From NCBI GenBank assembly GCA_031261005.1, contig JAISKF010000032.1, positions 1-64,000 of the forward strand: DNA of 64,000 bases. The letters run 5' to 3'. Origin of the DNA: Enterobacteriaceae bacterium. Its GTDB lineage: Bacteria > Pseudomonadota > Gammaproteobacteria > Enterobacterales > Enterobacteriaceae. How positions within the stretch are numbered: position 1 is the first letter of the stretch; every line of letters begins with the position of its first letter. Positions 1-63,363 of this stretch are shown piece by piece. A model generated the notes under the pieces. That model was not told the DNA's origin and ran no database searches. It saw only the letters and a list, made by a program, of their open reading frames with translations. A program made the translations under genes and the position numbers.

Positions 1-86
1 CTATTTACTCCTTTGATTTGCTGGTAACAAACCTCAGTAGTATTTAGCATGGGCATCTTACGGGCAAAGCCCCACAAGAACGATCA

Positions 87-152
87 CCACCTCCATAGGA
101 GGTGGTTTAAGAATGACAATAAAAACGGATACGGCACTCTGCCGTATCCGTT
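87..152 (+). repeat. Two adjacent strong hairpins upstream of degS
   Basis: Two inverted repeats lie just upstream of degS. The first is CCACCTCC-ATA-GGAGGTGG at 87-105. The second has a 12-bp stem, AACGGATACGGC paired with GCCGTATCCGTT, at 124-152 with a 5-base loop. Neither is followed by a clean T tract. The GGAGGTGG arm looks like a ribosome binding site for an ATG at 113, but that frame only adds 29 residues ahead of the true DegS start. Ends of IS200/IS605-type elements often carry hairpins like the first one, so this could be the right end of such an element lying to the left. That is inference only. Confidence 0.5.
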
Positions 153-199
153 CAACTCATGCTATTCTTACCCTACCTTTTAACTTTCTGATTATCCGC

Positions 200-1273
200 A
201 TGATTACCAAACTGTTACGTTCAATAATTATTGGCTTAATTATTGCTGCTGTTTTGCTGCTGATATTCCCGTCGCTGCGTGACGCATCGGGGCTATTTGA
301 CAGTTCTCTGGATTTGCCGCTTAGTGAGGCTCCCGTCAGCTATAACAGTGCTGTCAGACATGCTGCGCCATCAGTCGTCAACGTCTACAATCGCAGTGCG
401 GCGAGTTCTTCCAGTCAAAATACGTTAGGGATCAATACACTGGGTTCCGGCGTTATCATGAATCAGAAAGGATATATCCTGACGAACCGTCACGTTATCG
501 TGAATGCCGATCAAATTATTATTACCCTGCAAAATGGTCAGGTGTATGAAGCGTTATTAGTCGGCTCTGATACGTTAACCGATCTGGCTGTATTAAAAAT
601 TCAGGAAGGTAATTTGCCGGTTATTTCAACGAATCCTAAACGCACACCGCATGTTGGTGATGTGGTATTAGCAATTGGTAATCCTTACAATCTCGGACAA
701 ACAGTGACGCAAGGCATTATCAGCGCCACCGGACGTACCAGTCTTAGCCCTTACGGGCGGCAAAATTTACTGCAAACCGATGCGTCCATTAATCATGGTA
801 ACTCCGGTGGTGCGTTGATCAATACGCTCGGCGAATTGATGGGAATCAATACGTTATCGCTGGATAAACGCACTGACGGTGATACACCGGAAGGCATTGG
901 TTTCGCCATTCCAACAGAGCTGGCGACGAAAATCATGAATAAGCTGATCCATGATGGTCGAGTGATTCGCGGCTACATCGGTATTGAAGGTCGTGAGTTC
1001 AGCCAGACACAAAATCAAGGCAGCCCGTTTGATCGCTTACAGGGAATTTTAGTTCGTTCGGTGACATCAGGCGGTCCGGCAGAAGCAGCGGGATTAGTCG
1101 CCGGTGATATTTTGCTGAACGTCAACAATAAGCCCGCAACGTCAGCGATTGAAGTGATGGACGAAATAGCAGAAATCAGCCCCGGAACAAGTATTCCTGT
1201 GGTGGTTTTACGGCAAGGGCAAAAACTGACTTTTACATTGAAGATTACGGAATATCCGGCGCAGCAGAATTAA
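200..1273 (+). CDS. degS: Site-1 envelope-stress serine protease DegS
   Basis: DegS is the inner-membrane-anchored periplasmic protease that senses misfolded porin C-termini through its PDZ domain and cuts RseA, starting the sigma-E response. The 357-residue protein has an N-terminal membrane anchor (about residues 5-24). It has a trypsin-like domain with His (TNRHVI), Asp (LTDLAVLK) and Ser (GNSGGAL), and one C-terminal PDZ domain; DegP and DegQ have two. I chose ATG 200 because MITKLLRSIIIGLI aligns with the E. coli N-terminus; the longer frame from 113 adds 29 unmatched residues. No degQ lies immediately upstream in the 199 bases visible. The gene converges on murA across a palindromic repeat. 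Confidence 0.95.
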   Translation: MITKLLRSIIIGLIIAAVLLLIFPSLRDASGLFDSSLDLPLSEAPVSYNSAVRHAAPSVVNVYNRSAASSSSQNTLGINTLGSGVIMNQKGYILTNRHVIVNADQIIITLQNGQVYEALLVGSDTLTDLAVLKIQEGNLPVISTNPKRTPHVGDVVLAIGNPYNLGQTVTQGIISATGRTSLSPYGRQNLLQTDASINHGNSGGALINTLGELMGINTLSLDKRTDGDTPEGIGFAIPTELATKIMNKLIHDGRVIRGYIGIEGREFSQTQNQGSPFDRLQGILVRSVTSGGPAEAAGLVAGDILLNVNNKPATSAIEVMDEIAEISPGTSIPVVVLRQGQKLTFTLKITEYPAQQN

Positions 1274-40691: not shown

Positions 40692-41133
40692 TTTACTTTC
40701 CTTTTGAGATGAGAGTTACTCTTCAGTTATTTTTAATAAACCGAATAAATTAACTCTTTTTTTAAATAAGCCGATCCCGCAATAATAAAAACATAGCTTA
40801 TTACTGTATCGACAAGTTTTATTTCTGTAGTAACTTCTATTTTTATCTATTCATAAACTTACTCTATTTAGTCAGGCTAAATAGCCTTTCCGAATTCAAG
40901 ATATAGCAATCCTATTAAGGGATATTGTTGTATCGATTAAATAGATAGTATTGAAATACAACACAAATTATTCCCATACAAAAAAACATGGAAAATCAAT
41001 CGGATGTATTTATATCTGACTATGATAATTTCTCTTGATAACTTGTATAAAAATCAACAAGCAAAGAAAAACCCATAGATATAAGACAATGACTATCTAC
41101 GAAAAATCGAGATGCCATCGCATTGAAGTGTGG
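40692..41133 (-). promoter_or_regulatory. Long speF leader between speFL and speF
   Basis: 442 untranslated bases separate the speFL stop from speF, all transcribed on the minus strand. In E. coli and Salmonella the equivalent stretch contains a Rho-dependent terminator that is masked when ribosomes stall on speFL with ornithine. Here a perfect hairpin CTATTTAG-loop-CTAAATAG sits at 40864-40884. I saw no intrinsic terminator, which is consistent with a Rho mechanism. The rut site itself was not identified. Confidence 0.6.
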
Positions 41134-41238
41134 TTATTTAGAATTGAACATGTGGAAATCAAAGCATGCACGATCAGTCATCATCATCATGTGAGTGATG
41201 CGTCTAATGTGAGGCCAGGCTTTATTGTTGTTTTCCAT
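41134..41238 (-). CDS. speFL: Ornithine-sensing leader peptide SpeFL
   Basis: A 34-codon gene below usual gene-finder limits. The peptide starts MENNNKAWPHIRRITH and ends CFDFHMFNSK. It has the same length as E. coli SpeFL, and the HIRRxxH sensor motif is at residues 10-16 exactly. The C-terminal effector segment FDFHxFN is also kept. AGAGGAAG lies 6-7 bases before the ATG. In E. coli and Salmonella the nascent peptide traps ornithine in the ribosome exit tunnel, stalls at its C-terminus and prevents Rho termination before speF. The middle (MMMMTDRA) diverges from E. coli, including four Met in a row. Confidence 0.92.
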   Translation of the reverse strand: MENNNKAWPHIRRITHMMMMTDRACFDFHMFNSK

Positions 41239-41283
41239 TTTCTACTTCCTCTGAATGAGAAACCGAAATGAGTCTATCATTCC

Positions 41284-41313
41284 ATAATATTTAAATTGTG
41301 ATATTTCTCTCAA
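41284..41313 (-). promoter_or_regulatory. Predicted speFL-speF-potE promoter
   Basis: On the minus strand, TTGAGA (41308-41313), an 18-base spacer and TATTAT (41284-41289) lie about 45 bases before the speFL start, in an A/T-rich region. This is a sequence match only. The remainder of 41314-41555 is A/T-rich with no recognised gene. Confidence 0.5.
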
Positions 41314-41555: not shown

Positions 41556-41591
41556 TAAAAAAAAGCTCTTAAGTTAATAAGAGCTTTTTAC
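41556..41591. terminator. Bidirectional terminator downstream of ssb
   Basis: AAAAAGCTCTTA, a short loop, then TAAGAGCTTTTT: a 12-pair symmetrical stem with A and T runs. On the minus strand it ends ssb transcription, isolating it from the speF operon promoter. Confidence 0.85.
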
Positions 41592-41635: not shown

Positions 41636-42142
41636 TTAAAACGGAATATCGTCATCAAAATCCATTGGCGGTTCACTTTGCGGAGCAGGCGCGCTGCTTT
41701 GTTGCTGCGGTGCCGGGCGGGAAGCCTGTGCTTGCGGTTGCTGTGGTTGTCCCCAGCTACTTTGTTGCGCTGGTTGGTTATCACCGCTGTTTTGACGTCC
41801 GCCTAACATTTGCATTACGCCGCCGATGTTAACAACCACTTCGGTGGTGTAACGATCCTGACCGCTTTGATCCTGCCATTTACGCGTTTGTAACTGACCT
41901 TCGATATAAACCTGAGAACCTTTACGCAGATATTCACCGGCGATTTCTGCTAATTTGCCGAAAATCACCACGCGGTGCCATTCGGTACGTTCTTTTTGTT
42001 CACCGGTTTGTTTATCACGCCAGCTTTCGGAAGTCGCGATAGTGATATTCGCTACCGCACCACCATTAGGCATATAACGAACTTCTGGATCTTGTCCCAG
42101 ATTTCCGACTAGGATTACTTTGTTGATGCCTCTGCTGGCCAT
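41636..42142 (-). CDS. ssb: Single-stranded DNA-binding protein Ssb
   Basis: Ssb coats ssDNA as a tetramer and recruits replication and repair enzymes. It has 168 residues. An OB-fold (about 1-110: [39 protein letters not shown]) is followed by a Gln/Pro/Gly-rich linker and the acidic tip MDFDDDIPF that binds partners. It is divergent from uvrA, as in E. coli. Confidence 0.97.
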
Positions 42143-63287: not shown

Positions 63288-63363
63288 GGCCCCTTAGCTC
63301 AGTGGTTAGAGCAGGCGACTCATAATCGCTTGGTCCCCCGTTCAAGCCGGGGAGGGGCCACCA
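63288..63363 (+). tRNA. tRNA-Ile with CAU anticodon (lysidine type)
   Basis: 76 bases including encoded CCA. Acceptor GGCCCC/GGGGCC, D-loop AGCTCAGTGGTTAGAGCA, anticodon loop CTCATAA, T-arm CCCCGTTCAAGCCGGGG. It follows the E. coli ileX/ileY sequence except in the T stem. The CAU anticodon is converted to lysidine-AU by TilS and reads AUA, so this is not an initiator or elongator Met tRNA. Confidence 0.95.

Follow-up and report, generated by a model that had tools for sequence, protein, structure and literature searches.

A SpeFL leader peptide gene ahead of speF-potE in an Enterobacteriaceae genome and its natural variation across speF loci

The closest described systems are the leaders of the ornithine decarboxylase gene speF in E. 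coli and Salmonella. In E. coli, the nascent peptide SpeFL senses ornithine in the ribosomal exit tunnel and inhibits release by RF1 (PMC8429421). In Salmonella, translation of the corresponding orf34 prevents termination by Rho and ornithine raises expression of an orf34-speF-lacZ fusion (PMC6386406). Without orf34 translation, the activity of a speF transcription fusion there drops from 5263 to 53 units, and bicyclomycin, an inhibitor of Rho, brings it part of the way back, to 1762. The same paper proposes arginine-codon attenuation for orf34, describes a ‘downstream of stop’ hairpin (DS; deleted nt 154-189) starting at the 18th nt after the stop, and already offers an alignment and tree of the SpeFL family (S1 Fig) (PMC6386406). 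A literature search, conducted mostly without subscription papers, returned no further survey of speF leaders and no downstream hairpin besides the Salmonella DS, and no priority is claimed for either.

The window, i.e. the whole stretch of 64,000 nt analysed here, comes from a 2.76-Mb draft genome (94% complete) that is the sole member of its genus in our sample. On its minus strand a 34-codon frame is open from ATG to TAA (41238-41134), as the original prediction had it, and reads MENNNKAWPHIRRITHMMMMTDRACFDFHMFNSK before the stop (Table 1). The sensor motif HIRRxxH claimed at residues 10-16 is there as HIRRITH, and the C-terminus, described as nearly FDFHxFN, turns out to fit that pattern exactly (FDFHMFN, 26-32). 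The proposed likeness to E. coli SpeFL is borne out by Pfam family PF10940 (SpeFL), which the peptide matches at 29.7 bits against a gathering cut-off of 25 (E 5.6e-7), by E. coli SpeFL in PDB entries 6tbv and 6tc3 (E 1.9e-9, residues 1-33) and by the same length of 34 codons; an NCBIfam search with the peptide gave no match at E 0.001. It is the single match in its own genome. In comparisons with 16 relatives, synonymous changes approach saturation (pS 0.69-1.41), whereas pN stays at 0.11-0.28, and 45 pairs among ten clade members differ 245, 128 and 650 times at codon positions 1, 2 and 3; the frame is under purifying selection as a protein. Family model, length, motifs, this codon-level selection and the position before speF-potE together support its identification as a genuine SpeFL, so that the gene itself is, as expected, a new example of a known leader-peptide family. 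Its description as hidden holds for unannotated genomes, but some public records of other species already name speFL.

Table 1. Features of the speFL-speF-potE region, in window positions (residue numbers for the peptide motifs)
Feature	Position	Strand	Remarks
potE, putrescine-ornithine antiporter, 436 aa	37114-38424	minus	NF007938 827.4 (cut-off 409); TIGR04299 802.6 (cut-off 560)
speF, inducible ornithine decarboxylase, 722 aa	38523-40691	minus	TIGR04301 1416.3 bits (cut-off 1310)
15-bp hairpin with single-base bulges	41086-41121	minus	from 13th nt after speFL stop
G-free C-rich 12 nt	41122-41133	minus	directly 3' of speFL stop; candidate rut patch, putative function
speFL	41134-41238	minus	34 codons + TAA, ATG start; family model, motifs, selection
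speFL sensor HIRRITH	residues 10-16	minus	
speFL effector FDFHMFN	residues 26-32	minus	
Shine-Dalgarno AGGA	41247-41250	minus	8 nt 5' of speFL ATG
Promoter-like TTGAGA-18-TATTAT	41284-41313	minus	10/12; overlaps CRP-like site
CRP-like palindrome TGAGAGAAATATCACA	41297-41312	minus	9/10 consensus positions; centred 66.5 nt before ATG
ssb	41636-42142	minus	upstream of speFL, same strand

The speFL stop is separated from the speF start by 442 nt, and potE comes next. The predicted ribosome binding site is present as AGGA, and the plausible promoter exists as a promoter-like sequence, but such matches are no commoner in the region than in shuffles (7 against 7.4 ± 2.9). The overlapping palindrome was scored against the CRP consensus. 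CRP-like sites of at least 8/10 occur somewhere in 69 of 84 distinct regions upstream of MENN-type speFL genes; in 55 of these the centre falls in the bins 64-72 nt 5' of the ATG, and the mean best match is 8.1 versus 6.3 in shuffles. The palindrome may place speF under catabolite control. Between ssb and speFL lies a hairpin (41560-41589) followed by a T run on the minus strand, probably the ssb terminator, which would separate the speF operon from ssb. No intrinsic terminator-like site was listed in the speFL-speF interval, a point in favour of the Rho mechanism considered below, but the leader some 20-180 nt 3' of the speFL stop is not C-rich in the window, which counts against it. At gathering thresholds, Rfam returned only a tRNA at 63288 in the window, with no family matching the leader hairpin, and in the speF leader there were sub-threshold matches only.

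SpeFL and speF are closely linked. A single-sequence search of 60 genomes from the family gave matches in 13, counting the window's own, and a search with a 19-sequence alignment matched 32 of 394 genomes of the order, 30 of them genuine after removal of two artefacts: the weak matches in G127 and G200, which lack speF, are antisense to a 165-aa frame starting MTIIFTTNLGDIHIELD, presumably a peptidyl-prolyl isomerase. Ornithine decarboxylase exceeds the TIGR04301 cut-off in 32 of the 394 genomes, and in all 30 SpeFL genomes SpeFL lies 234-605 nt (median 291, measured match to match) before such a speF, on the same contig and strand. The two speF-positive genomes without a SpeFL match are G035 (TIGR04301 1338.3) and G299 (1367.6), the latter having no SpeFL-like frame in 2.1 kb upstream either. 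A class-wide draw of 369 genomes, which includes at least three others of the order, yielded one match, the window's own genome. A regex-free scan found a SpeFL-like frame upstream in 77 of 80 named speF loci (scores 51-143, with a maximum of 15.6 in the reverse-strand control and 4.5 or less at the three negative loci), and none upstream of speF in Paludibacterium (L068) or two Pseudocitrobacter (L069, L083). These three loci and G299 indicate that the leader peptide can be lost or absent. Spread by phages was considered and rejected, as 50,697 phage records contained no SpeFL match; in a plasmid collection, 9 of 72,556 records matched, several of them chromosome-sized.

The comparison of 56 distinct peptides, collected with a regular expression that itself fixes H10, R13, H16 and part of I11 and R23, shows H10, I11, R13, H16, R23 and F26 to be invariant, with R12 in 55 (one Q) and M18 in 55 (one V). 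The regex-free scan gave HIRR in 76 of 77 SpeFL-like frames. The middle of the peptide had been called diverged on account of four consecutive Met. This applies to M17, which is private to the window, but M18 and M19 (50 of 56; K19, the E. coli residue, in 5) are the family norm, and the four-Met run is not a novelty. Since the run is mostly consensus, the informative substitutions are M17, D22, A24 and M30, which the window alone carries among the 56 peptides; elsewhere position 17 is I or L, position 22 is H in 42, position 24 is S in 34 and position 30 is F in 28 and L in 12. Five loci had been dropped before this count (four duplicates and L003), and the private residues still stand because L003 has L17, Q22, S24 and F30. 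D22, which adjoins the invariant R23, is the least conservative of the four, and with these residues the ornithine sensitivity of the window's SpeFL could differ. Among 103 distinct genes, Arg12 is encoded by AGG in 64 and by AGA in 8 (the window has AGA CGC for Arg12-Arg13), whereas neither codon is ever used for Arg13; this perhaps points to a nucleotide-level constraint at codon 12 in addition to that on the amino acid. The second speF copy of Yersinia proxima (L019) is preceded by a SpeFL-like frame (1265-1390) with a HIQRVIH sensor and a longer tail; it is a natural sensor variant. It has an AGG-type Shine-Dalgarno sequence, and 111 nt further on begins a speF with 83% identity to that of the window; the second of the two Yersinia proxima speF genes (L043) is 77% identical to it.

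The effector end varies by lineage. It is mostly FDFHxFN in E. coli, Hafnia and Edwardsiella types, FSFAFFN in Serratia, FNFSYFH in Yersinia and FDHSFIF in many Shewanella. The spacing between sensor and C-terminus is largely constant: counted from H10 to the final residue, it is 25 residues in the window as in 88 of 103 distinct genes, and 33-34 in all eight ‘Pasteurellaceae-like’ genes, a group named from small genomes and sequence. In the latter frames (L110-L117) there are 8-9 more residues from sensor to stop than in E. coli, and the frame stays open upstream of the sensor without MENN, which makes its start uncertain. For these peptides, a stall at the stop codon with the geometry of E. 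coli seems improbable from sequence, and it would not account for their spacing. The window's speFL ends in TAA, as do 13 of 17 window-like genes and all Yersinia-type (9/9) and Serratia-type (11/11) genes; of the E. coli-type genes, 38 of 44 end in TAG.

The window frame is a SpeFL leader gene ahead of speF-potE, and we consider it very likely that, as in E. coli, an ornithine-dependent stall shields the leader from Rho. As the peptide is made, one ornithine would be held jointly by its HIRRxxH segment and the ribosomal exit tunnel. The C-terminal FDFHxFN segment would thereupon prevent release at the speFL stop codon, and the ribosome stalled there would deny Rho access to the leader, so that speF is transcribed and putrescine production switched on. 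A ribosome with a stop codon in its A site usually covers about 10-12 nt of the following mRNA. By arithmetic on the sequence and this footprint, the C-rich patch would lie inside the stalled ribosome and the hairpin just ahead of it; with little ornithine present, the ribosome would be released and the patch laid open to Rho. For the window, we infer ornithine binding, stalling and Rho action from E. coli and Salmonella, and the roles of patch and hairpin are proposed. TAA is read by both RF1 and RF2, and the stall would therefore have to resist both.

The near invariance of Arg12-Arg13 (but for one Q12), the AGG and AGA codons at position 12 and the loss of arginine control in Salmonella Lys12-Lys13 mutants (PMC6386406) would also fit a leader that is mainly an arginine-codon attenuator, in which ribosomes slowing at the arginine pair under arginine shortage alter folding and decay of speF mRNA and ornithine sensing is secondary. 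However, H10, I11, H16, M18, R23 and F26, which such an attenuator does not need, are about equally conserved, and synonymous sites are near saturation. Nor does the window support the long-range speFL:speF-RBS pairing that the Salmonella model calls for (duplex z +1.59; z is below -2 in 9 of 72 loci, by duplex energies of single sequences only), and we regard this explanation as unlikely. The four window-private residues could instead be signs of decay, with D22, A24, M17 and M30 having abolished sensing and speF being constitutive; loci without SpeFL (L068, L069, L083, G299) or with an altered sensor (Q12 in L019) do exist. Yet the family-invariant residues are intact in the window, pN is far below pS, and Shine-Dalgarno sequence, C-rich patch and hairpin are all present, which makes decay very unlikely. 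Frames of 34 codons are nothing unusual, and the list for the neighbourhood contains five more of just this length, but family model, structure-database match and selection refute a chance open reading frame, whose probability is negligible.

The first 12 nt after the window's speFL stop contain five C and no G. Of 1456 control 12-mers taken further downstream, 86 have at least four C and at most one G, whereas the 12-mer behind the stop has this composition in 64 of 104 distinct loci: 15/17 window-like, 9/9 Yersinia, 10/11 Serratia, 28/45 E. coli-type and 2/4 other loci, and none of the ten Shewanella or eight Pasteurellaceae-like ones (L006 is assigned to different groups in this count and in the folding count below). 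The patch is not confined to the hairpin-bearing branch.

The hairpin (41121-41086) has a folding energy of -15.3 kcal/mol (z -3.65, 0/200 shuffles as stable), and the 60 nt after the stop fold with z -4.06. A tentative extension of the ornithine-stall reading, which we hold to be possible but rather doubtful, is that the hairpin at the leading edge of the stalled ribosome closes off a footprint-long C-rich Rho-loading patch, ribosome and hairpin forming an antitermination lock that is absent in E. coli and Salmonella and belongs to a branch that includes the window, Hafnia, Buttiauxella, Edwardsiella, Enterobacillus and Yersinia. Among 104 loci, z is below -2 at 0-60 nt after the stop in 9/9 Yersinia, 7/18 window-like, 5/11 Serratia, 3/10 Shewanella and 2/4 other loci, and in 0/8 Pasteurellaceae-like and 0/44 E. 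coli-type ones. Strong folding occurs elsewhere in these leaders too, as the numbers of control stretches with z below -2 show: in the window-like group 4/18 at +60..120 and 7/18 at both +120..180 and +180..240, in E. coli-type loci 12/44 at +180..240 and in Pasteurellaceae-like loci 4/8 at +120..180; in Yersinia the counts at +60, +120 and +180 are 0, 1 and 0 of 9. That two of the control stretches fold just as strongly in the window-like group makes the lock reading less probable. An 8-nt complement in the window suggested that the 3' arm of the hairpin might instead pair with leader sequence further downstream, but this alternative does not exceed shuffles and was rejected (z -0.43 in the window, below -2 in 3 of 72 loci).

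Covariation support for the hairpin is mixed. RNAalifold gave no consensus structure and no pairs on the hairpin alignment, and the named structure was counted instead. With rows chosen as hairpin-bearing and a structure taken from the window and its kin, so that pair counts lean towards the hairpin, the stem pairs in 75.5% of cells on 17 chosen sequences (26-49% in slid versions) and the covariation score is 0.287 versus 0.206 ± 0.023 in shuffles (0/500), but both-sides pair changes (33/500) and further pair types (80/500) are within shuffles. For the 12 hold-out training sequences, the stem pairs in 70.2% of cells (2/500), while pairs changed on both sides (194/500), further pair types (71/500) and the covariation score (18/500) are counted as within shuffles.

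The hold-out search is a fairer test than these pair counts. A covariance model of the 12 sequences, made without Yersinia, Morganella and the window, was run on 76 other sources (392 kb) and found all ten Yersinia-type loci (E 3e-7 to 4e-5), which are near-identical and amount to roughly one independent lineage, and the window (E 0.0046), the first matched base being in each case nt 3-5 behind the speFL stop. L119 gave a weak match (E 0.36, from nt 5 behind the stop). The search missed three Morganella loci (L024, L025, L027), and two of its matches (E 1.7-1.9; L115, L056) lay elsewhere than at the expected position. The full model was run on 94 sources and then on the remaining loci up to L120 except L001, which is the window again. 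With a threshold of E 1, it matched 16/17 window-like, 11/11 Yersinia-type and 1/6 other loci, many of them rows used in building it, and 0/50 E. coli-type, 0/12 Serratia, 0/12 Shewanella and 0/8 Pasteurellaceae-like loci. Over 394 genomes, it gave five matches at E 0.01 or less under strict filters that may lose weak ones, four of them adjoining speFL and from lineages used in the model; the fifth (G113, E 0.004), in a genome without a SpeFL match, is probably chance. The hairpin, which is predicted to take part in the switch, is possibly a new RNA part beside a gene of the known SpeFL kind.

This survey amounts to a natural mutagenesis of an amino-acid-sensing nascent chain, in which the sensor is nearly constant and the effector varies by lineage. 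For the window's organism the switch may weigh heavily. In its draft genome speF is the only ornithine decarboxylase found, the other match to the SpeF model (contig 30, L155 1530-5017) being a lysine decarboxylase that adjoins a cadaverine/lysine antiporter gene, and no SpeA lies above cut-off. In this draft, speF may thus be the one decarboxylase that yields putrescine, and the speFL switch may gate all putrescine synthesis.

Among known systems, tnaC of E. coli has a Rho site beside its stop. TnaC follows the logic proposed here, a free amino acid and the nascent chain blocking release at the stop (PMC8429421), but its peptide and its ligand, tryptophan, are unrelated to SpeFL. Salmonella orf34 (PMC6386406) shares family, place and length with the window's speFL; nevertheless, the speFL:RBS pairing modelled there is unsupported here, and E. 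coli-type leaders, Salmonella subspecies included, show neither a surplus of stable folds over the first 60 nt behind the stop (z below -2 in 0/44) nor a match to the hairpin model (0/50). E. coli SpeFL (6tbv, 6tc3; PF10940) has the same 34 codons, the same positions of HIRRxxH (10-16) and FDFHxFN (26-32) and the same place before speF. The two peptides are identical at 19 of 34 residues (56%) and differ at 15, with M17, M19 and M20 of the window replaced in E. coli by I, K and F, D22 by H and M30 by F. In E. coli, speFL presumably also precedes potE. In the window, unlike E. coli, a hairpin begins at nt 13 behind the stop, the post-stop leader is 442 nt long and the stop is TAA, versus mostly TAG in E. 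coli-type genes.
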